From assembly GCA_000467715.1 (NCBI GenBank), contig AJFK01000191.1, forward strand, positions 1-59,738: a stretch of DNA of 59,738 nt, in the 5' to 3' direction. Of the stretch, positions 4,399 to 47,437 are shown piece after piece; position 1 is the first letter of the stretch; every line of letters starts with the position of its first letter. The notes under the pieces are model-generated. The model was given only the letters and a program-made list of their open reading frames with translations. It ran no database searches and was not told the origin of the DNA. The stretch comes from Hysterium pulicare CBS 123377 (Eukaryota > Ascomycota > Dothideomycetes > Hysteriales > Hysteriaceae). Position numbers and translations under genes: made by a program.

Positions 4399-5463
4399 CT
4401 AACCGTAACTTCCATTGCTGGTATGTTGGGGGTTGTTACTACCCCAATATTGGATCCCCGACTTCATCGGTCCACCAAACTCGACTCCATGTTGGTTTTC
4501 GCTGACTATAAGCCCGGGCCCGTTCTGACTTCCACTGCAACCAGCAGCCAAAGGTGGCCGAGCAGCCGCTGGTGTCTTAGATGTTCGATTCCCTGCTGGA
4601 ACAAGGCCAGCAAGGCCGACCCTATCCTTGACCTCCCTGCCAGCTACCTCATCCCGACCCCATCCGAAGCTTTCGTTGAAAGTTGGCGGAGATGTCGACA
4701 ATGTCTCGAATAGTGGACTATTGTCTCCATCAACTCCACAGAGTTCTGCATCACTCTGGAACTCTCTTAAAGGAAGGGTATTCTGGCATTCCATAGTAGG
4801 TGGGGGTAATGATGGTCTGGAGGGCCGTACGTTAACCTGCGTGTCATCATTCCCAATTCGCTCTGCTCTTCGTTGAGCAATTCTCGATGGCCTCCCTGGG
4901 AAATGTAGATTGAAAGTTGGGATTGTCCTAGGAGTTGGGCTATTGAGTCCGTCAACTGTGAAGCCCTCTTCGCGTGGTTGGAGGTTCCGGATTTTTCGTA
5001 CTTTCGCTGGTAGTGGCCTTGTGACTCTTTGGCTAGAACCAGGCGAATCTGGGTCTCCCATCTGCTTCCCTTTTCTTCGTACCTTCTGTTCCTTCCCTGG
5101 ATTAAAGATATTCATCATTCTCCGTTGTCTGGTTCGTTCTGCCTGCGTGACTGAATCACTCGGTGTGCCTTCAGGTTCCTTTCTGTATATTTCCACCTGA
5201 TTTGTTTGTTTCTTTTCCTTCCTTCTTGAGACATTGGTTTCAATCAGCGGAATGTAGCAGTTGGCATTTGCGACGGCAGCCCGGGAACCTTGATACTCGC
5301 GGTTGACGGTAACCAGACGCTTTCCCGATGATTCCTGGAGACTCGATCCGGTGTCTTTTTCTTTCTTGTGTATAAGTACATAATCAGGTTTTCGGCTTTG
5401 GTGAGTAGTGGTCCTTTTTCTCAAACGTTGGCGAACGGTACGGTAAAGATTGAAAATATCCAT
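4399..5463 (-). CDS. hypothetical basic, disordered protein
   Basis: I do not recognise this protein. From the ATG at 5463 it has 354 residues; the same frame is open to about 5586 and adds a stretch with paired cysteines (FCNGGTC, then RCDICNYLLY), so there may be an upstream exon joined at an AG near 5600. The body is rich in R, K, S, P and T, with an N-terminal helix-like segment (MDIFNLYRTVRQRLRKR) and basic clusters such as RRKEKK and KVRRKGK, and is predicted disordered by eye. A nuclear or scaffold role is possible but unsupported. It lies convergent to MEU1. Codon use looks ordinary, and a 1-kb open frame in this GC range favours a real gene, though its 5' structure is unresolved. Confidence 0.5.
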   Translation of the reverse strand: MDIFNLYRTVRQRLRKRTTTHQSRKPDYVLIHKKEKDTGSSLQESSGKRLVTVNREYQGSRAAVANANCYIPLIETNVSRRKEKKQTNQVEIYRKEPEGTPSDSVTQAERTRQRRMMNIFNPGKEQKVRRKGKQMGDPDSPGSSQRVTRPLPAKVRKIRNLQPREEGFTVDGLNSPTPRTIPTFNLHFPGRPSRIAQRRAERIGNDDTQVNVRPSRPSLPPPTMECQNTLPLREFQSDAELCGVDGDNSPLFETLSTSPPTFNESFGWGRDEVAGREVKDRVGLAGLVPAGNRTSKTPAAARPPLAAGCSGSQNGPGLIVSENQHGVEFGGPMKSGIQYWGSNNPQHTSNGSYG

Positions 5464-7179
5464 ATTTCCGAGCTTGGCACCTTTATGGAGAGAGGTGTAA
5501 AGTAGATAGTTACAGATATCACATCGAGCTGTGTATGAGTGCTCGAGGAGATCAGCTTGACAGGTTCCGCCATTGCAGAACAGCACTCTCCGCCTGCCAC
5601 GGTGAGTGACTGATCACGGAAGGAGACATTGCGGTACGACTGCCTTCCTCTAATTTGCTGATTGGTTCCTTGAAGGTAGCGCATCATGTTATGGAATGGC
5701 GAAGGATGGGTTTTGGCGTGACTCAAATTTGTCGAGGAGGAACATATGATACTTTCCGAATAGCCTCGAGGATAGCACCTTGCTGTTAAGCCTTGTACAG
5801 AGTCAAAATCAGCTTTGTAGGCAGGCAGTAAAGAAGGTGGTAGGCGCAGCCCCTCCGAAAACGACGAATTCAACACCTCATATGCCCGCCTCTCAGGTAG
5901 TAACGAGCTATAATCATTTCAATAGTAATAAAATATGACGTTAGCTTGAAACCGGAACCACACCTGCAGTGTGCGAGATGCCAACGTATACAATTCCATA
6001 AAGAGTTCGAATGGAGTCTCACCTCACTAGTAGACAGACTCGCGCTCTCCTCTCCCGGAACTATGATCATCTCCTTCCCGAGTCATCAGGAAGCCAACAA
6101 GGTTTGTACTTTCTCTCACCAACCATCCACTGCAGTGGCACTCACTGCTCATGTCCTTTCTTACAAGAGAAAACCTCCACTCTCGCTCTCTCATCATTCT
6201 CCTCGAGCTCATCCGCATTTATCGCCTTCTTGCTGGAGATCAATTCTAACAAGTATTCGCCTTTGATGTGCTCTAGAATGCCCAAGACCATGGTGATAGA
6301 TGTGACAGAAGCAGGTTCTGGAGTCGGCTCTGTCGGTCCCGGGAAAAATGGTATGAGAATTCGGACGAATCCATGGACAAAAGACATGGCTGAGATCAGC
6401 AACGAATGTACTAGAAGGGGAAAATGCGTGGAGGGGTGTTCGCAGCCCCCAATTTAGGTATACCAAAGAAGCTCTATTGAGAATGATAAATCTAAAAGAG
6501 CAACCCACAAGATAGACTGCTGATGTGATGGATATGTACAGGGTTGGAAACGGGAACCTAGTTAAGCATGTGAGTGCAGGGTAGTCATTACTCATGAGCC
6601 TCATAGGAGAGCTCCTTAGCTTTCAGCACTGCTCATGGCATTTTGAGGCTCAACTCCGTAGCCTTGCACCCGATGGAGGTATTATGATGACTGCCCTTGG
6701 CGGAACACGAGAGCCTTTAATTTAAGGTCCTTGCGTTGGCTGGTACCCCGTCTGTAGCATTCGATTGAAATCAGCCCCCCGTAATGGAGTATACCCACTT
6801 AAATACATTAGATTTATCATCAGCCTTCTCTCTTATCCATCTCTGTACACGTAAGCCAAACGACTGGGTGCTCTAAAGTAGACCAAAGGAAAGCAATAAG
6901 TGTAAATGTTCAGCGGAAGAAGGAGCAAGAATATATTATACAAGGCTGCAGTGCCCTAAGCCTGGAAGCCGGCCACTGCACGGAGCAAACTTGTCAAGCC
7001 AAGTACAAGGACATTGTTTGCATGATCGTAAATAAGGCAAAAAAGTAATAGCGATAGGGCCTCAAAGCGACATAAGAGCAAGGCAATCGCTATGCACAAC
7101 GAAACAGACAGCCCTTCAATTCCTCCCGGACGCCAACACACGTACTGCGTAAAAGATAAATAGCGAGCATGGCCTCATG
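5464..7179. other. 1.7-kb region, no firmly assignable gene
   Basis: Several short frames overlap on both strands. The best candidate is minus strand about 6142..6390: it opens with MSFVHGFVRILIPFFPG, continues with an acidic segment (NADELEENDERARVEV) and ends at a good donor (GTGAGT). It could be a 5' exon of the disordered-protein gene downstream, but I cannot build a consistent join, so no CDS is called. The rest, near 6600-7180, is probably 3' flank of the Zds1 gene. Confidence 0.4.
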
Positions 7180-11172: not shown

Positions 11173-13164
11173 TTACGAAGAAGTAGAGATATTCCTCTTC
11201 CATATATAGACAAAAGCAGCCGTTGCGCTTGCAATCGCTCCCAGCGCGAGGTATAGGTTCGTCCGATCAACGGGCTCTTCATCTTGCTTCGGAAACGCGG
11301 TAGAAGGATATGTGGAGCACTCGGCCAGCTGGACAGTGTTAGGCTTGGAAACAAAGTGAAAAGTGTCACGGAACACATACATGAACAAACAACTCCGAGA
11401 TGCTGCCCCACGTCACACTAACATGCAGTGGCGCGGCCATATTGAGTGCACTCGTGTACTCGTCCGGCTGCTGCTCGCACCTTTGCATAGTCTTATCCTG
11501 ATCTGCCTTGGTCGCGATATAAACTGCAGGTAGCTCATCCAGATGGCGATGCTTCTTCCGCAATCCGACAATGTGAGCGAAGCTATCAGGTTCACTAGAG
11601 TCATATGTGTAGCACAGCAGATCACAAGCATCTAACTTTGTCTTGTTCTCGAGGATGGCCGGTTCCAGTTCACCAAGCTCTTCGAGTATCAAATAACACT
11701 GCTTGCCTCCTTTCAGTTCTACACTGTTGACGGCAGACCGCGGTTTAATGGTCGGATGGTACGTCTGGTCGAAGGGCCGATTGAGGAATGCAGACAGAAG
11801 AGCGCTTTTACCACTCCCACTCGCTCCTAGAACATAGCAAAGGAAAACGTTTCTTTCAACCCTGCCAGGCTTGTTCCTCCGCTTGCGAGACTTCGTGACT
11901 TTGAGAGCAGCAGTGGTTCCCCCTCTGTCGGAGCTTTCGAAGCCCAGGAATGCAAGATATTTCAAAGTAGTTTTCGGTTCTTCGAAGGTAGTCATGCTCC
12001 ATTGTGCGAGCCAACCCTGAAGAGTGATGTGACCAGCCTCATTACGGACCGTGCAAGAAGGAAATGCTGAATCTATCCATGACGAAGGGACCCCTGGTGT
12101 TGGAGCAAAAAGTGCGGCAAGATCGGAGTCATTCAACCCGCCGTCGTTATCTTTGTCAAAAAGCAAGAACAAGTCCACGAAAAACCGATATCCAGTAGGG
12201 CTTAGTTCCGCGGAGGAGTATTGCGGAACCTCAAATTTTGGATGCAAAAATGTATCTTTCAAGCTTAAGCTATCGGTGTAGTTGAATTTCCTTAGAATAA
12301 TCCATATGGTCTCATGCCGTCCTTTTTCTGCAAAGATCTTGTTGAGTAACAAGAATCCTTTCTCATCGATCCCTCGATCGCTTGTAGAACCTGGTATAAA
12401 TCGCTCTATTGATCGTTTGATATTTGATAGATCGTCCTCTCCTAGTGGTCTCTCGAAGCATTTCATTTGGAAATCGTGAATCTCTTGATCATTGAGTAGA
12501 CCATCCTTGTCCTTGTCACAAAGATGAAATACCCGTTGTAATGCAGATACTGCCGCTGGCTTAAGCGCAGCTTCCTTTGAGTCATACAGAGGGGCTATAG
12601 GATGGGTGACAGCTTTCTGACACAGAAAAAATACCTCGTTGATATTGTGGTGTTCCTTTGCGCTGGTCCGTATACAAGAATCAATCTCCTTGAACTCATT
12701 CATGACCGGAAGCATCTCGTCTGATACCACTTGCGACGTTGTCCCATTAGACACTAGATCAGACTTGTTCGCGCAGAGCACCACAGGCACATTCACCCCG
12801 AGGGAGCGGAAGTACGGCATCCAGAAAAGCGCAACCCTTTCATAGCTGTAGTGGTCCGAGTATACTAGTAGAATGACATTCGACTTCCGGAGTTCCTTCC
12901 GCAGCGTATGACGCTCATGTGGCATTGCGGAGGTGTCGACGATGATTGTGGTGACGTTCTCAGGCGTTCCGAGTGTGGGAGGAAGTGTTACCTGGGGGAG
13001 GACAGCTTGGATCTTGGTTGTGACGAAGACATCTTTGACCAACGAGGTGATGATGGAGCTTTTGCCGACTCCTTCATCACCGCAGACACAAATTCGCACT
13101 GTTTCACAGACCAGTTAGTCGTTGAGATGATATACAGTAGTACGAAGAGCTTACCTGTTGCCAT
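11173..13164 (-). CDS. GEM1: mitochondrial Rho GTPase Gem1 (Miro)
   Basis: Outer-membrane GTPase of mitochondria; in yeast it regulates the ER-mitochondria tether and mitochondrial inheritance. Exons 13164..13155 (ATG GCA ACA G), 13098..11381 and 11328..11173; 627 residues, the usual length. In order: N-terminal GTPase with P-loop GDEGVGKS (residues 10-17) and NKSD; first EF-hand ([13 protein letters not shown]); second EF-hand ([13 protein letters not shown]); second GTPase with P-loop GASGSGKS and TKAD; C-terminal membrane anchor ([20 protein letters not shown]) followed by a basic end. The last intron, 11329..11380, must be removed to reach the anchor; reading through gives a stop and an anchorless protein. 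It is divergent from creC across 611 bases. Confidence 0.96.
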
Positions 13165-25911: not shown

Positions 25912-27573
25912 TCAGTATTGCCCAGGCTTACCCTCGATACCAGAAGTCGGCTTAGACTCAAGGTCATGCGCAAAGCTGCTAGTAGGGACTCCACTTGCAG
26001 GCGTGGCGCTCGCAGTGTGTGCACTGTTAACACCCTTCTCATCCGTAAAGCCTGTGGTCTGAATTGGCGCCGGCTGCCTATGCTCCTCTTCTGGACTAAT
26101 CGGGCTCGTCGTTGTGCTCTGCTTCTTTGCATCCACAGGTGAACTAGGGACGCTGGACTCAGGCAGTTCATTCGTAACCTGACCAGCAGCTTGTCTCATG
26201 ATCTCCCACCACTGGTTCGCAGCTTCGGGGGTATGTGCCTTGAACTGTAGCTCGTGGCTCATGGAGATCTTACCTCCAAGCTTGCCCTTGCTCACGTCTT
26301 TGCCCTTGACGTTGAATTTCTGGCCAGCGCAAGCGCCGATAACGCAGTTAGGAAGGTAGAGGGACAACTCAGGGACAGGATCCTTGGCAAAATCGTCATC
26401 GGTTTTATATTCATGCAGGAACTTGGAGGGGGTCACGACGTAGTAGTTCGTATCGTAGGAACGCATGATCTTTCCCTTACGCTCGAGCGATCCGGCGATG
26501 AGTGGTTGTGTGGCGCGATGATTTTGGTTTGGGAAGGAGATATTGGAAATGGAGCGAGCGGGGGCGGATGGGTCAATCAGAACGCCGGAGTTGCGCTTGA
26601 TAAATCCATTCCATTCGAAATCGGGAGGTACGCGTTGCGTGGTACCGACCATGTCTCCGTATAGGGCTTTTGTTTGCTCGGCTTGCGAGTTGACAACCTG
26701 CATGAACTGGCCCATGCCTTGCTGGACCACTTGAATGACATGCGCTTCGAATTGTGCAAAACTGTTCTGTACGGATATCAAGTCTTGGCGGTTGTTATTC
26801 TCCTCCTGAATTTGCCTATTCAGACGGTGCATAACTCCGCGTTGAAGGACGTATGGGTCATCAGTCGCCGACATTTTGCCTCCTGTTGAGTCGAACGTAG
26901 CAGTGTGCTGTCCGAGAAGCTCGATATGCTTCTGAGTGGTGTTTCTAGCCTTGTCAACAGCCTTGCTGCCCTTCCCGGCCCCCTTGACAAGCTCCTTAGT
27001 CTTGTTCTTGATTTCGGTGTGCAAACGATCGAATATTGGGAGAATTGAGCCTTTGAGTTGCTTTGCGGTGTCATAGTGGGAATTTGAGAGCCCCTAAGAA
27101 AACCATGCATTAATTTACAAAAAGTCGAAGCCCGAGTTCACGTATTGTACCTGTGTGTTGGATCTGATGCTCTCAAACATGCCCGCAATACCGCCGAGCT
27201 GTTGGTCAAAATGGTGACCCTCCTTTAAGGGATGCGATACAGTCTAGATGTAGCTTCAGCCTTCCGTGTTCCTCTAGTTTGGGCGAAAGCGTGTCGTACC
27301 TTCAGAATCCTTTCGTACTCCTTTCCATGCGCATGCTGTGTCTTCTCCGTAGCGGTGATGTAGTCTTCCAGGTAGACAATGGCGTGCTTCCAGGCCTGGA
27401 GACGCTCTTGAAATAGCCTTGTAACCTGATGATCTGTGAGCATCCGGAATAGAGTACGCACATTTCCGGTGGCTTACCTCGCTGGTGTCCTCGCCGGGGA
27501 CAGCATCATCGTCGCTGCCACTCGTGAAGGTCCTCGTGGGCAGAGTCGATGTGGCGGAGGTTGGGGCTGACAT
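25912..27573 (-). CDS. SLM1: Slm1-like F-BAR/PH protein (TORC2-eisosome)
   Basis: Phosphoinositide-binding adaptor that in yeast moves between eisosomes and TORC2 to activate Ypk kinases under membrane stress. Exons 27573..27478, 27425..27300, 27243..27151 and 27093..25912; 498 residues. The N-terminal part is Ser/Thr-rich; an F-BAR-like helical region follows (VTRLFQERLQAWKHAIVYLE, then KELVKGAGKGSKAVDKARNT, and IQEENNNRQDLISVQNSFAQ). The PH domain begins at LIAGSLERKGKIMRSYDTNY, with the insert containing KGKDVSKGK and closing on EAANQWWEIMRQA. The tail is Ser/Thr/Pro-rich. Exon joins are all in frame with normal GT-AG ends. No key element is missing. Confidence 0.92.
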
Positions 27574-28120
27574 GTTTCCTGGCGGTCAATACAAGACCTA
27601 TGGCGGGAAGGTAGGACAACGGAAGAGAAATGGCGGGGCAGGAAGGGTGGATGCCAGATGATGATGTCACGCTGAACACTTGGCTGGGAAGGCAAAGATA
27701 TGGACTTCAGAAAGTGTCAAGAGGGATGCCGCTTGGGGAGAGAGTAAGAGAAAGCGCAGGACATGGAGGGTGAAAGGCGCAATCTAGTTATCACGCGAAA
27801 GAAATTGGACCCTGGTTGGAGGTTCTGATCGTCTGCAGGGAAAGGGAAAATCGGTGATGTCAGACACCTAGACGCCTGGAATCCACGTCGCAGCCACACT
27901 CTGCACACCTGCGTAAAAGCTCCCGAGGCCTCTGCACACCCTCCGCGGAGCAAGTCGGCTATCAGCGGATCGAGGCTTGATAGAGGTCCATGGGTCTATG
28001 GGACCATGGGACTGTAGGAGTATGGAACTGTGTACGGCGCCGTTGCTTGCAGTTTAGCTGGATTTCGCGCGTGAAGTATGTACAGTTGATTATCCATCGC
28101 GGATGCAGTGATTCGACAGC
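27574..28120. other. intergenic between SLM1 and the HOT gene
   Basis: The 5' flank of SLM1 and the 3' flank of the transhydrogenase gene, both on the minus strand. A repeated CTATGGGACCATGGGACTGTAGG-like motif near 27990-28030 is a short imperfect tandem. I see no gene. Confidence 0.5.
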
Positions 28121-29736
28121 CTAATACTCCAGCGCTTCCTCGAAGAGGCCAGTCAGCTGCTCCCTCTCAGCATCCAAATCGGCGGTTTCCAGATTCGGCG
28201 CAAGCATCAACACTCTAGCCTGCGGAATCGTTCCCTCCACCAAAGCATCTATGTGCTCTCTCCCAAACCCAAGTGGTTTGAGGCCTCTCGGCTGATCCCC
28301 CAATTTGATGAGGAAATCCGCCAAAGCTTCACTAAGCACCTCACCCGCGCTCTCACTCTTCACGTTGCTGATATCTACACCGAAGCATTCTGCCGCCTGG
28401 AGATGCCGCTCCGGATTTGAAGCACCCGTAAACTTGAACACCGCCGGCGCAGTTACCGCCACCGAAACTCCATGTGGAATGATGGGTGCCTCCACTTGGT
28501 ACCCAGCGTGCCTATATCCAGGATTCTGACCCGAGATGGGATAGCTCATACCATGACACAAATGAACACCAGCATTGCCAAATCCTACACCCGCCAAAGT
28601 TGCTGCTAATAACATTTGGCTTTGAGCCTCAAAATCTTCGGGATCCTTAACAGCGCGAGGAAGGTACTTCACTGTATCTCGAAGTGCCTTCAGCGAGAAG
28701 ATATCTGATATAGGATTAGCTCCTTGGTACGCCGGCCGGTTTATTGGATTCGTTGGTCTGGGGACTCGCTCGTAGAACGGGATCGCAGTCCAGCTCTCCA
28801 GTGAGTGACAAAGCACATCTAGACCCGATGATGCATGGACGGCAGAAGGCATAGTACGAGTGTTGAGAGGGTCGACTATTCCGAGCGTGGGTTTCAAATT
28901 TCGGTGGGCAATGCCTGTCTTAGCACGCTTTTCTACTAGATCAAAGATTGCTGTGCCTGTGGTCTCAGAGCCGGTTCCAGCGGTGGTAGGCACAGCGATT
29001 AGTGGTTTCAATTTCGCTGTTATCGGCTTGCCTCTCCCTAGCGGGGCGTTGACGAAGTCAAGGAATTCTGCCTCTGCTAATGGTCAATGATGGGCAAGTA
29101 GAAGACTGAGAAGGAAGGAAAGTACCAGGGAATGTAGTGTATAAGTTCATCAGCTTCGCAGTATCTATCACAGATCCTCCACCGACAGCCAGGAATGCAT
29201 CAGGGGCATGCGGTTTTGCGAAGTCAATAGCTTCGCGTATTCTACCACCCCTTTCAGCATTATTCTATTATGGCGTCCCTTCAGGAGCGGTTAAAGTGAA
29301 GAAGAAGCCATTTGAACACTCACGAACTGTCCTTGGGCTCCACCCTGACATTATCGAAGACCTCAAACGGAATCCCTTCCATCTCCAAGCCCTGCACAAC
29401 CTGTTTCATAGCATCTAACTTCTTGACATTCATGTCCGTAACGACCATCACCTTTCTCGCCCCCATATTCTGGAAATCCATCCCGACTTCCTTTGTACAT
29501 CCCGGCCCAAATCGGATACTCGAAGCAGCCATCTCAAATGCATATTCTTTCTGCTGCGACGTGTCCATTGGGGTAGCTAACGACCGTCGAGCTTGATTTA
29601 CGAGGGTAGGCGAAGCATGGTGATGATGCCCAGGATTTGAGTGGCACGGACAGGTGGGGGGATGGGTGAATTGGACGGTGCGGAGGAGGTTTAAGGCACG
29701 TGTTGCGCGATTGGGAAGGACGCGTATCGCAGACAT
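28121..29736 (-). CDS. ADHFE1: mitochondrial hydroxyacid-oxoacid transhydrogenase
   Basis: Iron-type alcohol dehydrogenase family enzyme that couples oxidation of 4-hydroxybutyrate (or another hydroxyacid) to reduction of 2-oxoglutarate, in mitochondria. Exons 29736..29324, 29241..29126 and 29076..28121; 494 residues. The N-terminus is an Arg/Leu-rich presequence (MSAIRVLPNRATRALNLLRT) followed by an odd His/Cys-rich stretch (PPTCPCHSNPGHHHH). The nucleotide-binding GGGSVIDTAK lies across exon 2; the family pattern AVPTTAGTGSETTGTAIF and the metal-site histidines in HSLESW, CHGMSYP and RHAGYQV are visible. The start is the ATG at 29736; an in-frame GTG upstream is not used. Exon 2 has two nearby acceptors; the downstream one gives DSSIREAIDFAKP, the better family match. 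Confidence 0.92.
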
Positions 29737-36000: not shown

Positions 36001-37563
36001 ATGCTCCTAATATCGCTGCTCTTTGTGGCAACTTCGCTCGCATTGCCGTCCAGGGAAAATCCCGCCAGGGGCGTGCAGATACAGTCCCGGAATTATGGTA
36101 AGACATCTGCGAACTCCTAGATCCTAGTCAAAAGCAGAAAACCACAGTATCACAGAACCGCACAAAATCCCACAAAATCCTATGCATGCAAGCCCTGCTT
36201 GGAGATCAAAGAAGCTAACAAAAACAAATCGCCGACCAGATATAGCAACTAACCTCCTCCACCTAACCACCACATCCAACAACTATGTCGATACCCACCT
36301 TGCACGATATCCAAGCACCAACCTCGATGCCTATTTATCGCGAGTGTATGAGGACGAGGACTTTGCCATGCCGGATCAAAATGCTACCGCCGATACATCT
36401 CTCTTGACCATAGGAGGACGAGTATATTTGACTACAATCCAATTCGGCAACACGAGCCTCGTCTCGGTCATCGACACTGGATCAAGTGACACGTGGGCCA
36501 TTAGAACCGGGTTTCAATGCGAAGGCGTAGACGACAGCACGCCGAATCCGTATCCCAATTGCGGGTTCGCAGGACCGTATACTCCTTCTGCGGATTTCCA
36601 GGCCATTGATGGATACGATTTCAATGTGCAGTACACGGACGGTGAGCATTTGAACGGGATTCTAGGGGTAGAGAACGTAACGTTGGGAGGGCTGGAGATT
36701 CGACAGACGATTGGAGTTGTGGACCAGGGGTACTGGCTGGGAGATGGGAAGAGTAGTGGGCTTGTGGGATTGGCGTTTCCGAGTTTGACGTCCTCGCATG
36801 AGTTGAACTATACTTCCATAATTTTCACACTGTATGGACTATACTTCCCCTTTCCTTTCTATTCCTTCTCCACCAGTGATATTATGCTGATCATGTCTGA
36901 TTCGTTAGGATTGCCGACGGCCTAATCCCTCCAATTTTCTCTCTGGCATTAACCAGATCCTCTCCTTCAGCCCCAAACAACGGGGGCGTCCTAGCCCTCG
37001 GTGGTCTTCCTCCCGGCTCTTACGACGAAGCCTCCTTCGCAACTGCACCTCTTCAAACGATGAACGCCGATGTCTATACCTTTTACACCACAACCGTTAC
37101 TGGCTTCAGCATCGCCGCACCAGCGATCCCCACGCGGCGCGGTCCGCCATCCCTTCCATTACCTCCACCCGGCCACACCACCTGGACCGAGACAGCGCCA
37201 CTAAGTCGAAGTTTGCAAATGGTCATCGATTCCGGAACGACCTTGATGTACATTCCCGACGATTTAGCTGACCACCTGGCGTCGTTGTACTACCCACCAG
37301 CCGTATTTAACGACGCTTATAACTTGTGGCTTGTAAATTGCACAGCGGTACCGCCGCGGTTTGGTATCTCAATAAGCGGGAAGACGTTCTTCGTGAACCC
37401 TGTGGATATGATAAATAGAGCGAGCGGGACGACGTGCATTACAGCTGTACAGAGAAAAGGAAGCGGAGATGCGGTTCTTGGTGATTCGTGGCTGAAGAAC
37501 GTGCTCGTTGTTTTCGATTTGGGCGGAAGTGAGCTCAGATTTGCGTCCAGGGAGAATTATTGA
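36001..37563 (+). CDS. secreted pepsin-like aspartic protease
   Basis: Extracellular (or vacuolar) aspartic endopeptidase of family A1. Exons 36001..36097, 36138..36831 (an acceptor giving 36156 also keeps the frame) and 36909..37563; 481 residues. The signal peptide is MLLISLLFVATSLALPS; a propeptide of about 80 residues follows. The first active-site motif is VIDTGSSDTWA, the second MVIDSGTTLMYIP, both intact; YLTTIQFGN is the usual lead-in to the mature enzyme. There are several N-glycosylation sites. A Pro-rich insert (RRGPPSLPLPPPGHTT) precedes the second Asp. The C-terminus ends just after DLGGSELRFASRENY, without an obvious GPI signal. Intron 2 contains an in-frame stop if retained. 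Confidence 0.92.
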
Positions 37564-38041
37564 GGTGGGTGAACCAGGGGCTTTTCGCTGTATAATAGAA
37601 TTCTATTGCAAGACCATGGACGATGGATTTGGGACAGGTGGGAAGACCTAGAAGATCTGAGGAGTTTGGGTGTATAATACGATTTGTATCGCAATATCGT
37701 AGGTGTTGATTCCCCTGGAGTCCGTCTACAACGACAATTAACAATAAATTGAGCGTACGGTGATTCTGAGATACTCTCAAATCCCACTTCCCGTTCACGT
37801 AGCACATTTGACAGCCTCATGAGTAGATCTGCCAGGTTTCTCATCAGCGGTGAACAAGTCATACAGTAATGACTGGAGACCTTTTTGAAGTTGTTGGCTG
37901 ATTTCGGCGTACAATTGAAAGTAGAGAAATTGCCCACCTGGAACCCCGAAGTATCTCTTTATAAAAATGCTCTTTCAGCTTGCCAACGCCAGGTGCTTGA
38001 TGAAGGTAGGATGCTCGAAATTCTGCTCGAGATGGTACGCT

Positions 38042-39033
38042 TCACCATCCACCACCGTATCGACCCCTTCCTCCTCTAAAGCCACCGCGACCTCCTCTAC
38101 CTCCCCTGAAGCCACCATAGCCACCCCCTCCCCTATCATTGTATCCGCCGCCAAAGTCATCTCTCGGCGCTTCAGACTCCCTTAGCGGAGGCGCTCGACC
38201 CTTTAGCTCTTTCTGTAACTGTTCAAACGTCTTCCTCATCTGTGCGTATCCCAAGTGCATCTTGCCATAAAAGTGATCCGCTAATCGCCTATCATTATCC
38301 AGCCGACTAAGATACGCGCCGCAAACATCGCAGACTTGGAGTTTTTGGTGACCCGAAGGACCAGAGGTATCTGAGAGGGCTTTGAGCTTCATTTCGCATT
38401 CCTCTTTTTGCTGTTTTGCTTGCTTAATTTTGAAGAACTCGGTCACGGCTGTATTGACTTCGCCTTCTTCGCCTAGAATGTGGACTTCGAGGAGGCCGTT
38501 GGAAATGGTTTTTGTGAGGTCGGATATTTGCTTGAGCTGTCAAACATCACCTCTGTTAGCTTTCAACGCTTGACTTTGACAGTGAACGCAGCTACAATAA
38601 AGAAAATCACCAACCAAAGCATTGGTCTGCCTGATCTCATCCGGCGTCTTCTCCAGTCTCCTCTGTGCCCCGTCAATCCTCCTATTACACTCATCCACAT
38701 ACTTCTGCATATCCCTCAGATAATCAAACTCAAACCCCCACTTGCGCTTCTGGTCATCATCGGCACCTTCGTATTCGGCCTTGAGGCCTTCGGAATGGAC
38801 TTTCGGACAGGGACCGAAATCTTGTTTGGTATTCGTGAAGAGATCATGCGGACAGGTTCCCACTAGATAGGATCGGCAGATTTTGGGGTCGGTTATGGAG
38901 AGTTGGGGTGCGCGTGTACCAGGGCCAGACATGAGCTGCTCGCCCATGAGCTGTTCTACGTTGAGGTTTAGCAAATCAGGCGAGCATGTTGGAGAGAGCA
39001 CATACCGAGAAGTTTACGCTGTTCCGCCGCCAT
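38042..39033 (-). CDS. LUC7: U1 snRNP protein Luc7
   Basis: U1 snRNP component that helps select 5' splice sites. Exons 39033..39006, 38955..38615 and 38536..38042; 287 residues. The first exon encodes MAAEQRKLL; the join gives EQLMGEQLMSG. The first zinc finger is CCCH type (CRSYLVGTCPHDLF, then CPKVHSE); a coiled coil follows (ECNRRIDGAQRRLEKTPDEI), then KIKQAKQQKEECEMKLKAL and the second, C2H2 finger (CDVCGAYLS, then HFYGKMHLGY). The tail is Gly/Arg-rich with RGG repeats (GGFRGGRGGRGGFRGGRGRY), fitting RNA binding. The length is usual for ascomycete Luc7. Intron 38537..38614 does not break the frame at once but removing it restores the coiled coil. Confidence 0.95.
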
Positions 39034-39284: not shown

Positions 39285-41024
39285 TTAATTTCTATCCAAA
39301 GTCTTGTGTAAAGTATGTTCCCTCATCCCTAAACCAACCAAGGCTCCAAGAACTCCAATGCCCAGAGTCGTTAACCATACCCCTCGTAGTGCCGTCATGT
39401 AACTCTCTAACACGCCGTCTTTCCAGCCTGGCGGAAGATGTTTGATCTCGTCGATACTATCTCGAATCCGAGGAATCACGTCCGCGGCATCATTACGGTC
39501 GCCGAATTTCTGCCAAAGCTGGGCTTTTAGGAGGTTCTGGAATACGGCGCTTGCTATCGTAATGCCAATTGTGCTGCCAGTGGATCGGAAAGCGTAGGAA
39601 GCGGATGTAATTACTGCTTGATATTTGTGATCAACGGCAGCAATGAGAGCCAAGAGGGTGGTGGTCAGAATGCCTCCATATCCTGTTCCAGCCAGAAGGA
39701 AGAAAATTAATGGCGGAGCGACAGGCGTATTGATGTTAAATCGGGCCGATATAAGAGCGAAAGCCAGGACGAGCATTCCTTCCACTACAACGTTAAGCAC
39801 GTAGTATCGTCCTGTCACTTTCGTTATAATCCCAACGCCTAACGAGCCTACTGCTGCCCCAATCGAGAGCGGAATAATACGAGCTCCAGCTTGAGCACTG
39901 GATAACCCCAGGACTTGAAAGTAGATGGGACCGTAGAAGAGCAACTGGAAAAATGACATTGTACAGAACCAATTCGTAAGGCATCCGCAGAGTACTGTAC
40001 GATGGAGCAAAAGTCGCACGGGAATCACAGGCTCGGAGGCTATCCGGTCTTCCACGTAGATGAAGAGTCCGAAAAAGACGACCGACAGCGGAATGCTGAT
40101 AAGAACAAGGGGATGCTTCCACGAGACTATGTTACCCCCAGAGTTTAGGCCAATTAGGAGTAGAACTAACGTCGCAACAAGTGTCAGAGCCCCAAGAAAG
40201 TCGACGCGTTTCAGGCGTGACATGTTCTTCTCTTTTACAGGTATCCTAACGGTCATGCCGACGAGAATACAGGATAGGATAACGAATGGCACTTGGATAA
40301 GGAAGGCATTACGCCAGCCCCAGACGTCATTGATCCAACCACCAAAGACGCCGCCTAGTCCCATTCCGAGACCAAAGCAAATGTTTCCGAACCCTTGCCA
40401 GAGTCCTCGATTGCGGAGAGGGATGAGGTCTGTGGTAACGAATGTCGCCATAGCAGTGAGACCCCTATAAATAGTCAACGTAACACTTTTGGTGAACTGA
40501 TTCAGATGCAGAGTCCTGACTCTCTACAGCCTGATGAGCACTCACCCTCCCCCCATTCCTGCAACCACACGTCCGAGTATCATAACCGCCTCGCTCTTTG
40601 CAAGCCCACACATTAGATTTCCCGCCGCAAAGAATATGTTGGAGAAAACCAAGCCAGTCCTTCTACCAAAGATATCTGTCAAGCGGCCACTGAGGGGTTG
40701 TAGGGCCGCATTGGCGATCAGATAGGCTGAAGCGAGCCATGATAGGAGCGTAAAGGAGTTGAATGAGGTAGATATGGGTCCGGACAGAGTTGCTATGATG
40801 GTTGAGTCTAATGCTGCTAAAAAAACGCCCACCCATACACCCCCGAGAGTTACAATGGCTCTTGTTGTAGTAGGTTCCTCTGCTAGTGGGGTATCATCGT
40901 TCTCGCCATCGGCAGTCGGTTGTCGCTCGATTGTGCCATTGTCTTCTGCCTGAGCTGAATCATGAAGCAGAGGACTAGATTCGGTTGGCAGAGAGGTCTG
41001 GTGCTCATCTGCAGTCGTGGGCAT
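39285..41024 (-). CDS. MFS transporter, DHA2 (14-TM) family
   Basis: Major facilitator of the drug:proton antiporter-2 group, which includes the yeast Vba vacuolar basic amino acid transporters and multidrug exporters. Exons 41024..40546 and 40464..39285; 552 residues with about 14 hydrophobic segments. The N-terminal tail is acidic and Ser/Thr-rich (residues 1-50), then TM1 (VTLGGVWVGVFLAALDSTII, with the family LDxTIV-like motif), motif A GRLTDIFGRR, and GRVVAGMGGGGLTAM across the splice join, the glycine-rich motif that also marks DHA2. The substrate cannot be assigned: the acidic tail with a di-leucine-like SSPLLHD fits vacuolar sorting. No biosynthetic cluster surrounds it. Confidence 0.9.
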
Positions 41025-41148
41025 ATTATTTTAGATGAAGAAATAGTTCTGTATGCGATTACGTCTGACAGATGAGATAGTGCTCGGAGAACCGAGGTTT
41101 AAACGCTTAGTAATATAACGCTTAGTCATGTTTGCCCACACCCGGACA

Positions 41149-44100
41149 CTACACCTTGAAACTTCCAGGCATGAACGATTCATGTTCGTCTGTGGCCTCG
41201 TGTATCGCTCCTCTCGCTAAGAGAAGACCCATGACTTCCTCATTCTCAAACTTTTGTGCCACCTGAAGCAAAGACTGGCCCTTGAATCTGCTGTTCACCT
41301 CCAAGCCGTTGTCCAGCAAATCACCCATCAGTGTTGCATCGGGCTGCTCACAAGCCGTCTCCAGTATGCATTGATGCTTCGAAAGGGACCACTCTTTTCC
41401 CATTGCCTCAAATAGTTCTGTCAGGATGGCCGTACGCTCTTCAGGCCGCATCTCGTGCGCATGCCCAATCGCCAAGGAGATGGCATTTGAACCGCCCTGG
41501 TCTGTAATGAACGGGGACGCTTTTGTGTCCAGAAGCATTTCAACAGCCCATGAAGAGCCTCCTAAGATGGAAAAGTGCAGAGCTGTTCGCATCAATGAGC
41601 CGCTTCGCTCATCCACTTTGAGCTGTGGTCTCTTGAGCAATAAGTAGAGCACTGTTATATGATCTTTGGTTAGAGGGCCGCGGATCTGATTTGCAGTCAA
41701 CAATAATGGTGTCATGCCCGACGATGTCTTAGCATTGATATCTGCGCCACTGTTTAGCAGCAGTCCAACCGCCATGGGGTCCTTTCGGCGCACCGCCATG
41801 TGAAGGGCGGTCTCCAAAGTGCCAGGGAGCTTGAAGTTGACATCAGTCGCAGCGGTTTCAGAATGCAAAAGTAAGGCCAGCGCATTCAATTTGTGTTCCT
41901 CCAATGGCTGTGAGTCTGCGCCCCAGAATAGTTTAGCTAAAGGATAGTCGCCGCTTGCGTCTGGTCCATTCGTATTGGCTCCATATTCAATCAAGTCTCG
42001 AATGAGTTCCTTGTAGTGGCTAAATGAAGGATTTTCTATTGCAAAATGCAACGGCGTCTTTCCTGTCCGTCGGCACTTCACATTTACATTGACTCCGTGT
42101 TCAAGAAGAGCTTGGACACATTTGTTGTGCTGAGGACTAGCGCCTTTGACTGCGTTGAGGAGAGGGCCGGGCCGTGGTTTTGCAGTAGTGCCAGGGTTAC
42201 ACTTTTTACTGAGTAGAAAGCGCACAGCTGCTGCTTTCCCCCGCCGGCAAAAATTCTCCAGGTAGTGGTAATCGTGGTCAAGTTTGCGATTGATACTAAG
42301 GCCAGACAGGAGCTTCTGCGTATTGACTGACATAACGGAAGTCGCCACTGTAGACGCAGAATCCCATACTTCTTGCATATATTTAGAGGGACTAATGTCA
42401 GGGATCGGAGCACGTATGGGCTTGGTCTTTTTGGCCTTGGTTGAATCATGCAATGCCAGATTTTGGGCTGTAAGCTTCTTGCTCTGGCCTTTCGAGGCTT
42501 GCCGTCCATCTTCTCGCTTGGATTGAGCGTTCAAGTTAGGGTTGTCTTGGGAACGAGAATCTTGACTCTTCTGAGACTCGAATTGTTTCCCAATGTCAGG
42601 AGGAAAAGTTACTTCTTTTGAGGCATTGGCTACTCCTTTCGCTTTCAAGCGGCCCCGCCCTTTTAGTTTTCTTTCCTTTTTTGGCTCGTCAGCTTGAGCG
42701 TCCTGTTGCAAACATTCAACATCCGGATCCGAGGGCCCAATAATATGGGTAGGACTATCCGGAGAAAGATGTCCATTGCCCAGTTGCAGCGTCTTCACTG
42801 TCGATCGTCTTGGTGGTTCGTCGGGCGCAGCCTTCTGAGATGCTTGAGCCGGTGCAATATGCTGAGGGAAGATACCCGGAGAATTTGATGGTAGTTCCAG
42901 TATGATTGGTATTTCAGGTATGGGTGGCAGTGCCACTATTGGGTCGAGTGGCACATTGCCAAAGGGCCGGGGAGTCACATTTCGCAAATTTTCAATTACG
43001 ATTACTGGATGGCTGCGTTTAAGTGGAAAGGAGCTAAATGCTGGGTCTTCATGAAAAAGTGCTACGTCATCATCGTCAGAGATGCGTTCAAGCGTATCGA
43101 AATCCCGAACTCCATCCTCATCCGACTCCATTTTGTCTGGCGCCTTAAGTGTAGTTTCTGAATCAGATCCAGAGCTGTCCTCAACCTCTTGAAACAGGCC
43201 TGACTTGGGTTCATCTTCGTCAGAGTCGCTACAGCACTCATCAAATCCAAGTCCCGTGTCTATGGCCACAGTGCGTTTGTTGGCATCAAGCATACCGCCA
43301 ATCTCTTGATGTGAAGGGATAGGCGTTCTCCATTCGCTGTCACCAGCTAGCTCCACAATTGAGCTCGGCCATAGTGGGCAGGGATCCTCGATGAAAGCAC
43401 CTGGCATCCAAGGTGCTGTTTCGTAAAATGCTCGATCGGCCGTATAGCCTAGGCTAGGAATCTCCTGGTATGGTAGAGGGGACGGGGGAAGCGATTGAGC
43501 CGTCGGTGAAAAGGGTTCTGGAATAGGAGAGAATTCCGGTCGAGCTTCAAGATACGGAGTAGAGGGTTTATCGGAAGACTTGTCCAGCCAGTATTGAATG
43601 GAATGAATGGAGTCTTTACGTAGAGAAGAACCTGAATTTATTGCCGTTGGGGAGTTTTCAGTGTTATCAGTCATGCTGGAGGAGTGCCGGGGTTCCAGAT
43701 TCACAGCAACGTCTATGTCGTATTCGAATGTCCGTTCTCTAAACTCTGGGTGGCAGTTGAAACAGCAGAATATTGTAAATGAAGGGGTTTCAAGAATATC
43801 CTTCATCAGACACCTAGAATCCGGTCTTGTCTCTTGCTTTTCTCTCAGTAGGTTTTTAATCCAGGCCAGAGGTTCATTGTCATGAGGAGGTCCTACGTTA
43901 TCCCTCTGCAGTATTTCTAGCCATTCATTTATGGCTGGGATATTTGCCCAAAAATGAGGCTCCGCTCTGCGCACCTTTGCCCTCTTACCCAGAAAGGTTC
44001 GCAAATCTTGAAGGCTTTTCCCAAGAAGGACGGTCGTGATCTCTAGGAAGACGACACCCAGAGCCCACATGTCACTTAGTGAACTTCTCGGGTCTTGCCG

Positions 44101-45192
44101 GGCAACTTCTGGCGCCATGTAATCACGATTGACGGGGACGGTCTGGTGCCTTGTCATACTCCCCTGTGCTGCATTCCAGCAGTACGCTGATCCAAAATCG
44201 CTAACAAGCACCCTTCCATCCTTGACGAGTATATTTCTTGCTGTGATATCTCGATGCCTAATTTTTTTGGTGTGGAGGTAATGAATCGCGCTGGATAGGC
44301 ATCCATAGAAGTATCGCATAGTAACCGAGTTGTTCCGTTGGTGCAATTTGGGCATAGTGAGAAACTCGAGAAGGTTGGAATCAGCGACGGGTTCCATTAA
44401 CACTGCTATATAATCTTTATCGGTGTAAGATCCCACGACCTTGATCAGATGATGATGGCATAGAGGCTTCAAGGCCTTTATTTCGTCGATTAGGGTCTTT
44501 TGATTGAACCGAGTTGCGTCCGAGTCACGACCACGATGTACTCTTTTCCGTGCGTAGTATTTCAATCCTATGACAGAAAAGACTCGATCCACTGTTCTGA
44601 AAATCATATTAGAACAGACTCAGGGATTATGTATAATTCCTTGAGCTCACCCAAATCCACCTTGCCCAAGATGGTTTTGAAATCGAAAATATTCATCTCC
44701 ACTCCCTTTAAAATGAACATGTTCTCCTTTGGGATTTTCTAGGTGCGAGGCATCCGTGTAAACTATGGACTGGATTGCAAAGAACTTCTCTCGCAGTTCT
44801 TCCTCGCTCAAAAAACTTGGAAGAGTGAGATGGGAGTACGGCAGGGATTCATCCGTGAGTATGGGTTTACTTTTCGTAAACGGTTCCATCAATCCAGTGC
44901 TGCCAATATTGTACAATATCGCGAAGGTCCGTGGCCGTAAGTGCCAGCAGTCATATCCTTTCCGACCATACCGGTTGTCAAGAGCCCTGAGAAGGTCGAC
45001 TATCCGTGCTATGCGTTCTTCTGGAATCCGGGCACTGGCGGTTTTGTCCGCCGGTATTGGAGGAGTGCATAGCTTCCCCAAGGAATCCCAAACTTCAGCC
45101 TCAGTGAAAAATTGATCGAAATTCTTGTTTACATTGTCCCTGGCCTGTGGCTGTCTGCCAAAAGTCCGAAATAAGGAGAATAAATTGTTCAT
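41149..45192 (-). CDS. protein kinase with C-terminal ankyrin repeats
   Basis: Predicted active protein kinase with an ankyrin-repeat tail, the layout of animal RIPK4/ANKK1. Exons 45192..44651 and 44596..41149; 1329 residues. Residues 1-165 form a conserved-looking N-terminal region without a known name (DQFFTEAEVWDSLGKL, then LPSFLSEEELREKFFAIQSI). The kinase domain starts at HLGQGGFGTVDRV, with lysine in YYARKRV, HRDITARN, DFGSAY and YMAPEVARQDPRSSLSDMWA, so catalytic residues are present; HRDxxARN recalls tyrosine-kinase-like loops. A disordered acidic and Pro-rich linker spans about 480-930, with a basic cluster (KKERKLKGRGRLKAKG). Ankyrin repeats fill about 970-1310 (TGKTPLHFAIENPSF, ETALHMAVRRKDPMAVGLLL, RTALHFSILGGSSWAVEMLL). 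It is divergent from the HeLo-pseudokinase gene. Confidence 0.88.
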
Positions 45193-45667
45193 TTTCGAAA
45201 CCGTACTGCACGCAATGTAGACGCTTTGTTGAAGCCCTCTGGGAAAGAGTCAGGAACGAAAACGAGGGTCTTTTCGGCAAGGCCATACCTCAGCCTTGTC
45301 TGATCAGATGCATCTCACCTCCTCGTGATTGTTTTGTGGCTGTTCTGCCCACCTGCACCAAATTCGCTTGCAATTACTTTATGAAGTTGCTTTGGACTCG
45401 GAAGTAGACTCGTAAGGATGTTACGCTCTTGAAATCCGTCTCAAATGAGCATATAACATGAAATTTGTCTTAAACGGACGCCAAAGACCTGGCCGAAAGT
45501 CATGAATTAAGCCTACCCACTGTGCACCGTAATACTAACCCCTCACTTGGCACGCAGCCGATGAGTGATTTCCGGTTGGAGGCTCAAGGCCAGCTGACGT
45601 TCCATTTACATCGGTCCGCTTCCATATTCCAGTTCGAAAGCACCTGTTGAATACAAGCAATCAAGAA
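45193..45667. promoter_or_regulatory. divergent promoter of the kinase-ankyrin / HeLo-pseudokinase pair
   Basis: The start codons of the two genes face away from each other across 475 bases, so both promoters are here. No other frame has recognisable content. Shared control is an inference from layout only; I see no specific factor site I would name. Confidence 0.5.
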
Positions 45668-47437
45668 ATGAGTGGACTCGAAGCTGCACTGATAGGAACC
45701 CAATTCCTTTCCTTTTCATTTCAAACTTTCGAAGCATGTGTTCAAGCATTTTCATTCTTTTACACAGCACAGCATGTTGGAAATGACGGCGAACACTTCA
45801 GATCGCGACTGATCTGGGAGCAATATCGTCTGGTTGAGTGGGGTAGCAAGGCTGGCTTAGGCGAAGCGTCCACCCCAAATGACAGATTGAACTGGCAGCT
45901 CGCGCTGTCAATTTTGCAGCAGCTAGAGCGCCTGCTCACATCGGCGGAAAGTCTGAGGGCCAAATACCACCTGGACATATCAGAAGAGGTCGTCAGCGAC
46001 TCGGACCGCGTACTGGCCGCTAGCAAGCCGACTCATGCGCTTGACAGATTGATTGCACATTTTCGGCCCGAGATACACACGGCCACAGGACGTGCTATCC
46101 AGTCCAAGAATAGTGCTATAAAGAAATTTCGCTGGGCGGCTTTTGGAAAGAGTCAGGCCGACACAATTGCACATGCAATATCTGAACTTGTCGCAAAGTT
46201 ATATTTTCTCCTTGACTCTGCCGAACAGGATCTGTTGCGGCTCAGCATCTCGGCACTGCTGCGAGACATGATCTCCAAAACCACAACGGCAACCGAAGTA
46301 GATCAGATAAAGGCAATTCTTGAACCAAGTACTGTTGCCGGGCACCGGGCAATTCGAGCTGCCGCAATTCTGAAGCAAATTCGATTGACGATTGGGGCGC
46401 ATAAGCGCCCTGATGAGAAACAACCACAAGCAACATCGGAAAGCCGAGAGAAGATGCCACAACTAAGGCGTTTAAAATTGAAAAAGTTAAAGAAGTCTGA
46501 CAGTTGCCTTCAATTCTCGAGTTCCGGGCTTGAGGCCGCAATTTACGACGGCTCCCCGGTACTCGTTGAGTGGAAGGTGGCAGCGAGCGCTATGTGGAAA
46601 GAAGTTGGAGACCACGTCAAATGTCTTGCACTACTCCTTGGAAGCATGAAAGACATCACATTCCATTCGCTGCTTTGCATCGGCTATTTGCCTCATGAGG
46701 AGGTGGAAAGGTATGGGTTGGTATTCGACATTTCGGGATCGATGAAGTTACTAAAAACCCCCACGCTTGAAATCAGAACTCTTGTTGAGTTGATGAGGAG
46801 TATAAGCGTTGTGTCCCTTGACCGAAGGATTTCCGTTGCCATAGCCATTGCAGAGGCAGTTCAACAGCTGCATACAGCTGGTTGGTTGCACAAAGGTCTT
46901 CGTTCTGAAAATATCATCTTCATAGGAGCAAATGGTCTAAACGCACAAGAGTACTTCCAGAGCCAGCCCTACATCGTAGGCTATGAGTATGCAAGACCGG
47001 ATTCAGAGGCAGCCGCTCAGTTCACCCAGCTGCCGACCACTCCACTGTCTGCAGAACTGTATCGCCATCCCCAGGCTCGAGGCATATCGCGGCAATCATA
47101 TTGTAAGGCTTTCGACATATATGCACTGGGCTGTCTCCTGCTTGAGCTGGGCGTTTGGAAACCTTTGGTCGATGTTCAATCAAGTTGGGCTGTTCGAAAT
47201 CTGGGCGAAGAGATAACAGATGCAACTCAAAGCAACGCTCACATTGAGTTACCCTCTTTGCTTTGGCTTTCATCCGAGACGAAGGAGTTTGAAGAGCTCG
47301 CTCATTGTGCTGGTGATAGATTCGCACAGGCGGTACAATTATGTTTTGCACCCAATGATGGCTCTGGGGACGATGTAGAGTCATCGCTGAGTACTCAACG
47401 ACAGGTTGTAGACCTTCTCCAAAGTATTATTGGATAG
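45668..47437 (+). CDS. HeLo-domain pseudokinase (fungal MLKL-like layout)
   Basis: Single exon, 589 residues from the ATG at 45668 (the frame is open a little further upstream but without ATG). Residues 1 to about 225 match the HeLo (prion-inhibition and propagation) domain: SGLEAALIGTQFLSFSFQTF, then RSRLIWEQYRLVEWGSKAGL, the pattern known from HET-S. The HeLo domain is a helical, membrane-acting cell-death module. Residues about 270-585 are a kinase fold lacking catalytic motifs: VEWK keeps a lysine, but HRD is replaced by HKG (WLHKGLRSENIIF) and DFG by GYE (PYIVGYEYARPD); the APE-like region is AELYRHP and FDIYALGCLLLELG follows. It is therefore a pseudokinase. N-terminal death domain plus pseudokinase recalls MLKL. 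No amyloid (RHIM-like) motif is seen. Confidence 0.88.
   Translation: MSGLEAALIGTQFLSFSFQTFEACVQAFSFFYTAQHVGNDGEHFRSRLIWEQYRLVEWGSKAGLGEASTPNDRLNWQLALSILQQLERLLTSAESLRAKYHLDISEEVVSDSDRVLAASKPTHALDRLIAHFRPEIHTATGRAIQSKNSAIKKFRWAAFGKSQADTIAHAISELVAKLYFLLDSAEQDLLRLSISALLRDMISKTTTATEVDQIKAILEPSTVAGHRAIRAAAILKQIRLTIGAHKRPDEKQPQATSESREKMPQLRRLKLKKLKKSDSCLQFSSSGLEAAIYDGSPVLVEWKVAASAMWKEVGDHVKCLALLLGSMKDITFHSLLCIGYLPHEEVERYGLVFDISGSMKLLKTPTLEIRTLVELMRSISVVSLDRRISVAIAIAEAVQQLHTAGWLHKGLRSENIIFIGANGLNAQEYFQSQPYIVGYEYARPDSEAAAQFTQLPTTPLSAELYRHPQARGISRQSYCKAFDIYALGCLLLELGVWKPLVDVQSSWAVRNLGEEITDATQSNAHIELPSLLWLSSETKEFEELAHCAGDRFAQAVQLCFAPNDGSGDDVESSLSTQRQVVDLLQSIIG

Follow-up and report, generated by a model that had tools for sequence, protein, structure and literature searches.

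A kinase-ankyrin gene facing a HeLo-pseudokinase gene

We examined a 59,738-nucleotide contig of the ascomycete Hysterium pulicare CBS 123377 (AJFK01000191.1; here the window, or contig C154 of the 37.2 Mb, 596-contig genome that was searched), on which two genes stand head to head with 475 bases between their start codons. One encodes a protein kinase with ankyrin repeats and the other a HeLo domain followed by a pseudokinase (Table 1). A sequence-only reading of this stretch had proposed the two as a possible fungal analogue of RIPK and MLKL, in which the kinase acts on the pseudokinase to release the HeLo domain. The placement of both genes proved exact, the domain assignments stood (E-values in Table 1), and the observation of a kinase-ankyrin/HeLo-pseudokinase pair is confirmed. 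As for its interpretation, the domains, the MLKL-like order of an N-terminal killer helical bundle (HeLo) and then a pseudokinase, and the recurrence of the adjacency in this genome were borne out, but the likeness of the kinase to RIPK and the ankyrins as a general feature of the partners were not.

The N-terminal region of the intronless gene, on whose HeLo identity the proposal depended, scores 96.5 bits against PF14479 (gathering score 23.2), and a phmmer search of the Protein Data Bank (PDB) with the window protein returned HET-s ('small s protein') first, at 1e-5. Its pseudokinase matches Pkinase (2.5e-6) and DUF7580 (PF24476; 0.002, 18.3 bits versus a gathering score of 27), both under the gathering cut-offs. 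The replacement of HRD by HKG and of DFG by GYE is read directly in the sequence, as had been claimed, and eight Ser, Thr or Tyr residues lie within the 34 residues from GYE to YRHP. A single-sequence structure prediction of this protein, made with no alignment, had a mean pLDDT of 35 and was unusable. The bacterial and archaeal genomes searched for its relatives held none.

The opposing gene has a single 54-base intron, which the glycine loop (LGQGGFG, amino acid 175) straddles. Its kinase motifs are intact, again as claimed: a candidate VAIK lysine in YYARKRV (amino acid 194), HRD (295), DFG (314), MAPE (341) and SDMWALG (355); the Pkinase and Ank_2 matches both come from the second exon. 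A linker of about 500 amino acids separates the kinase domain from the ankyrin repeats, and about 170 amino acids precede it, containing a domain that we call KN. The suggested RIPK4/ANKK1-like layout holds in the order of kinase and then ankyrins, but not in an N-terminal position of the kinase, and the linker also sets the protein apart. KN is about 110 amino acids long and was found at ten places in the genome, C277 included; a kinase domain follows at most of them in the sequence examined, and at C339 KN stands alone. Eight members scanned against Pfam gave no convincing match (best E 0.07). A second kinase frame that resembles the ankyrin region of the window lies on C532 (tblastn 1e-6), a 10-kb contig on which none of the pseudokinase loci found is located.

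Table 1. Features of the gene pair, in positions of the window.
Feature	Positions	Strand	Description
KN-kinase-ankyrin gene	41149..45192	-	1329 amino acids; exons 45192-44651 and 44596-41149
Ankyrin repeats	41208..42249	-	Ank_2 1.1e-23, four stretches
Protein kinase domain, motifs intact	43789..44685	-	about amino acids 170-450, intron inside; Pkinase 2.2e-32
Intron	44597..44650	-	GTGAGC...TTTCAG, within the glycine-rich loop
KN domain, unnamed	44710..45072	-	about amino acids 41-161; homologues at nine other genome places
Intergenic stretch between both start codons	45193..45667		475 bases; possible shared promoter
HeLo-pseudokinase gene	45668..47437	+	589 amino acids, intronless
HeLo domain	45707..46237	+	amino acids 14-190; PF14479 2.4e-27, same span from genome profile search; HET-s top PDB match
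Pseudokinase domain	46535..47434	+	about amino acids 290-589; weak Pkinase and DUF7580 matches; aligns with 11 genome relatives
Degenerate catalytic loop LHKGLRSENIIF	46886..46921	+	HRD to HKG; catalytic loop LHKGLRSEN
Degenerate DFG place VGYEYARPD	46976..47002	+	DFG to GYE

Pseudokinase relatives and their neighbouring kinases

With the window protein as query, 14 pseudokinase loci were found in the genome, its own included: C154, C339, C56, C277 (two, a and b), C161, C316, C536, C465, C48, C307, C426, C546 and C347. Twelve members were aligned, and all share HK at the HRD place. Pfam recognised HeLo at half of the loci (C154, C161, C339, C316, C307, C277b and C465), the N-terminal part of the remaining scanned loci being unrecognised or outside the frame; eight of the 14 (C161, C339, C316, C277a, C277b, C536, C465 and C426) pass the gathering score of DUF7580. 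The pseudokinase parts of C307 and C347 are frameshifted with no obvious intron, either through decay or through assembly error. A search of the genome with PF14479 returned eight HeLo loci. The top one, C130, has a 284-amino-acid frame (37205-38056, plus strand), with a calpain-type Peptidase_C2 frame (40122-41201, minus strand) some 2 kb away.

The pseudokinase profile scores its own members strongly and the partner kinases weakly; the kinase half of C426 is an exception, and so are the kinases of C161 and C277, whose E-values are no better than about 7e-4. The pseudokinases are therefore one family and not local duplicates of their neighbours, and local duplication as their origin was rejected. 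The tree of the family has one well-supported inner branch only.

Five loci have a kinase gene at most 1 kb away: C154, C161, C48 and C347 in divergent and C277 in tandem arrangement. At C161, a HeLo-pseudokinase (plus strand, first ATG 119780) lies opposite a kinase with HKD and DFG (minus strand, ATG 118866), across a gap of 913 bases. Opposite the C48 pseudokinase (minus strand, frame to 73024) stands the gene of a kinase-WD40 protein (plus strand, ATG 73754), and the frameshifted C347 pseudokinase (minus strand, frame to 52754) faces a kinase that keeps HRD (plus strand, frames from 53009). At C277, a kinase gene on the same strand (frames 27435-29100), whose product matches KN at 8e-5, is located upstream of the HeLo-pseudokinase C277b (minus strand, frame to 27196), on which the C277a pseudokinase converges. 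The two parts are joined at C426: in a single 652-amino-acid frame, the pseudokinase follows a kinase that looks active (2.5e-39). HRD or HKD, together with DFG, is retained in the kinases of C154, C161, C48, C277 and C426, which suggests that catalysis has been selected. Ankyrins did not prove to be a general partner feature, as one other partner kinase has WD40 and no recognised repeat was seen in the rest.

Other loci show looser or partial arrangements. The C339 HeLo-pseudokinase (minus strand, ATG 71636) lies opposite a KN-only frame (plus strand, ATG 72257; 2.2e-44 with a KN profile that includes C339 itself), and the kinase profile matched only the pseudokinase itself over 9.9 kb there. 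An opposite-strand kinase with HGD and DFG is found more than 2 kb upstream of C536, where it is perhaps not the nearest gene, and the truncated C546 pseudokinase abuts a broken kinase piece. A few kb from the C307 HeLo-pseudokinase there is an NPHP3_N (NLR-type) frame (11413-12357, minus strand). Contig ends bound the flanks of C316 and C465, and downstream flanks were covered to 1.5 kb at most loci. A genome search with PF00069 scored 121 of 244 candidates and did not have the C48 kinase among the matches listed, so it was not used to declare a kinase absent.

The six partner kinases do not form one clade (approximately unbiased test, 2.7e-5, in a tree with partly hand-joined rows, two long branches and good support on 5 of its 25 inner branches), and a grouping of just the C154 and C426 kinases was likewise rejected (2.5e-4) once the hand-joined exon rows were left out of the tree. 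The kinases of C48 and C347 group together, and these two loci look like one duplicated pair; the C347 pseudokinase grouped with that of C48 in one tree only, which we did not rely on.

Chance expectation and possible roles of the pairing

The adjacency of kinase and pseudokinase recurs inside this one genome. It was compared with a null in which 120-300 kinase genes are spread evenly; this calculation is post hoc, assumes even placement and takes paralogues as independent, and its 'divergent' and 'within 1 kb' criteria were picked after the window pair was known. With C277 taken once and C316 left out, 12 clusters could be evaluated. Five of them have a kinase within 1 kb, versus about 0.3-0.75 expected, and at least five of 12 with a kinase within 2 kb would arise with a probability of 7e-6 to 5e-4. 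The range is 1e-4 to 4e-3 if C48 and C347 are merged as one event (4 of 11) and 1e-7 to 4e-6 for divergent pairs only (4 of 12), and the value for three clusters adjoining one of the ten KN loci is 2e-6.

Ten loci served as controls: the HeLo-only C130, C549 and C390 (8.7-9.9 kb each) and seven of the twelve canonical DUF7580 loci (C596, C175, C502, C486, C454, C361 and C501, with 3.5-4.2 kb upstream), leaving out C402, C180, C465 at 15 kb, C232 and C107. The first six of these seven were read on their upstream side alone. None has an upstream kinase, versus 5 of 12 pseudokinase clusters (Fisher test, 0.030). A kinase-TPR frame does lie a few hundred bases downstream of the C501 control, and once it is counted the comparison becomes 5 of 12 versus 1 of 10 (0.12); a kinase match about 4 kb from C596, on the other strand, brings it to 5 of 12 versus 2 of 10 (0.27). 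The control comparison is equivocal. With these two kinases, either it is the placement null, more than the controls, that carries the excess, or related DUF7580 loci have something of the same tendency.

At C501 (1626-4136, plus strand, and 4558-7121, minus strand), a repeat-bearing kinase (TPR) stands beside kinase-like DUF7580 and Peptidase_S8 frames, the DUF7580 being joined to this subtilase domain. The canonical DUF7580 loci at C486 (58696-60338, minus strand), C361 (124273-125798, plus strand) and C596 (53560-54168, plus strand) have an opposite-strand upstream frame that shares a C..C...H...H zinc-finger-like stretch, and the C486 frame had no Pfam match. These frames are possibly another recurrent divergent pair.

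The explanation we favour, at slightly less than even confidence, is a sensor-executioner module in which both genes serve regulated cell death. It draws on the domains and motifs, the five paired clusters, the fused C426, the KN-only frame facing C339, the partner kinases not being one clade, and the precedents of pore-forming HeLo and of fungal gasdermin-protease neighbours. KN and the ankyrin repeats, which WD40 replaces at another locus, would pick up a cue, for instance non-self, infection or damage, upon which the kinase would phosphorylate the pseudokinase, or dock on it and reshape it. The pseudokinase, acting as latch and receiver, would then free the HeLo helices, which could form oligomers that break through the plasma membrane. 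With their divergent spacing, the two genes would tend to be expressed and inherited together. Kinase and pseudokinase are linked in this genome and in one gene fused; the direction of the signal, the phosphorylation and the killing are what we infer from this arrangement. In the HeLo protein, the RHIM core, the one amyloid pattern searched, is absent, which counts for such a module; the linker of the kinase protein holds a single, unconvincing match to it (LQLG).

Several observations weigh against such a module, in addition to the kinases at C501 and C596. Among the paired loci, C48 and C347 have no HeLo match, unlike C154, C161 and C277; C347 is also frameshifted, and its kinase reads DFA at the DFG place. 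No kinase was found within the 9.9 kb examined at C307, in the 3 kb upstream of C277a or in the 3 kb upstream of C56, although at C56 the same strand carries one at a distance of about 5 kb. The HeLo N-terminus of the window protein is mildly hydrophobic, with a hydropathy below that of three of four relatives (best 19-residue mean 1.06, versus 1.5-1.8 in C161, C307 and C316). The resemblance of the pseudokinases to MLKL counts for the module but depends on the profile. A seven-member C-lobe profile ranked mouse MLKL first among 177,635 distinct PDB sequences (5.7e-10), with TYK2, IRAK4, LIMK and BRAF trailing by about 2-3 bits only, and a twelve-member profile scores GCN2 and IRAK4 above MLKL, which is not among the best 60 of 163 PDB matches to the window protein alone. 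At the DFG place, the fungal 'gfeysR' was aligned on the 'gfe' of MLKL, and GFE is shared with the family consensus. Judged from these alignments, the pseudokinase appears to resemble MLKL and its nearest kinase relatives, which fits descent and convergence alike.

The kinase might instead restrain the killer, as a guard, an inhibitor or the antidote of an allorecognition poison-antidote pair, so that its loss or mismatch would release HeLo. The recurrent adjacency would suit this arrangement equally, and the C339 partner, which is reduced to KN with no kinase domain, makes a non-catalytic restraining role possible; but the kinases of C154, C161, C48, C277 and C426 keep HRD or HKD and DFG, and we consider restraint unlikely. 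We give still less credit to the idea that pathogens or stress modify the pseudokinase as a decoy or mimic of their substrate, or that an NLR activates it, with the kinase being a parallel receptor inherited alongside it and not its activator. NLR-HeLo pairs are a known fungal scheme in the parts of PMC12881547 drawn on here, and C307 combines an NLR-type frame with the absence of a kinase over the same 9.9 kb; in the window, however, no NLR was recognised in the 13 frames scanned of its 20 longer ones, and the single RHIM pattern tried revealed no amyloid motif.

The adjacency could also be a by-product of large kinase and death-domain families in unstable regions, whose members become neighbours through chance and duplication. 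Both families are expanded in this genome, the frameshifted C307 and C347 pseudokinases and the truncated C546 beside its broken kinase piece agree with such instability, the control comparison is not significant once C501 is counted, and the placement null presumes evenness and independence. This origin nevertheless seems improbable to us, given the five of 12 clusters against an expectation below one, the fused gene at C426 and a pseudokinase family too distant from the partner kinases to be made of their local duplicates.

If the sensor-executioner reading is extended beyond the window, the loci may represent a fungal class of kinase-to-pseudokinase death modules, in which one executioner family is wired, in divergent, tandem or fused form, to unrelated active kinases with ankyrin or WD40 trigger repeats. 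We put this forward tentatively and hold it to be somewhat unlikely. Were it true, the necroptosis circuit of killer bundle, pseudokinase latch and activating kinase would exist outside animals with no necessary amyloid step, and may predate them. What is known of HeLo death proteins in fungi concerns mainly amyloid signals sent by NLRs. A branch triggered by a kinase would provide the step in which the fungal pathways and mammalian necroptosis differ, and inheritance versus convergence of the MLKL design would become testable. The loci also offer studies of fungal allorecognition and defence specific gene pairs whose sensor repeats are interchangeable.

Comparison with known systems

RIPK4 and ANKK1 have an N-terminal kinase followed by ankyrin repeats. 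The window protein shares this order but has KN in front and the linker in between, and by sequence its kinase is not RIPK-like: its best PDB matches are EGFR, MAP3K5, ABL1 and BTK, and no RIPK is among the best 60 of 1734. The RIPK3-MLKL pair is similar in joining an active kinase to a protein with an N-terminal killer bundle and a C-terminal pseudokinase, with the GFE-type change in the family consensus. The fungal pair differs in having no convincing RHIM, a kinase that is not RIPK-like by sequence, a HeLo domain that matches HET-s, and adjacent genes. HeLo is a pore-forming cell-death domain related to the MLKL helical bundle, according to section 18 of PMC12881547.

Among fungal proteins, Podospora anserina has the HeLo-'Pkc-like' proteins Pa_4_8870, Pa_6_8690 and Pa_7_7510, two of which are induced in incompatibility (PMC3689799, Table 5). 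They also combine HeLo with a kinase-like domain, but the parts of PMC3689799 that we draw on mention no kinase neighbour for them. HeLo-kinase proteins are already published. A pairing of kinase and HeLo-pseudokinase genes was not described anywhere in the full-text literature searched, with most subscription papers and all preprints outside it.

The HET-S/NWD2 and HELLP/PNT1 clusters likewise place a sensor gene beside the gene of a HeLo or HeLo-like executioner, as set out in the parts of PMC12881547 used here. Their sensor is an NLR and their signal an amyloid fold, whereas the window HeLo protein ends in a pseudokinase and has a kinase as its neighbour. Fungal gasdermin genes, in turn, adjoin proteases with ANK, WD40 or TPR repeats (PMC12881547, section 20). 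In both cases, a repeat-bearing enzyme is encoded beside a membrane-breaking protein, with a kinase and a HeLo-pseudokinase in the window taking the place of protease and gasdermin.

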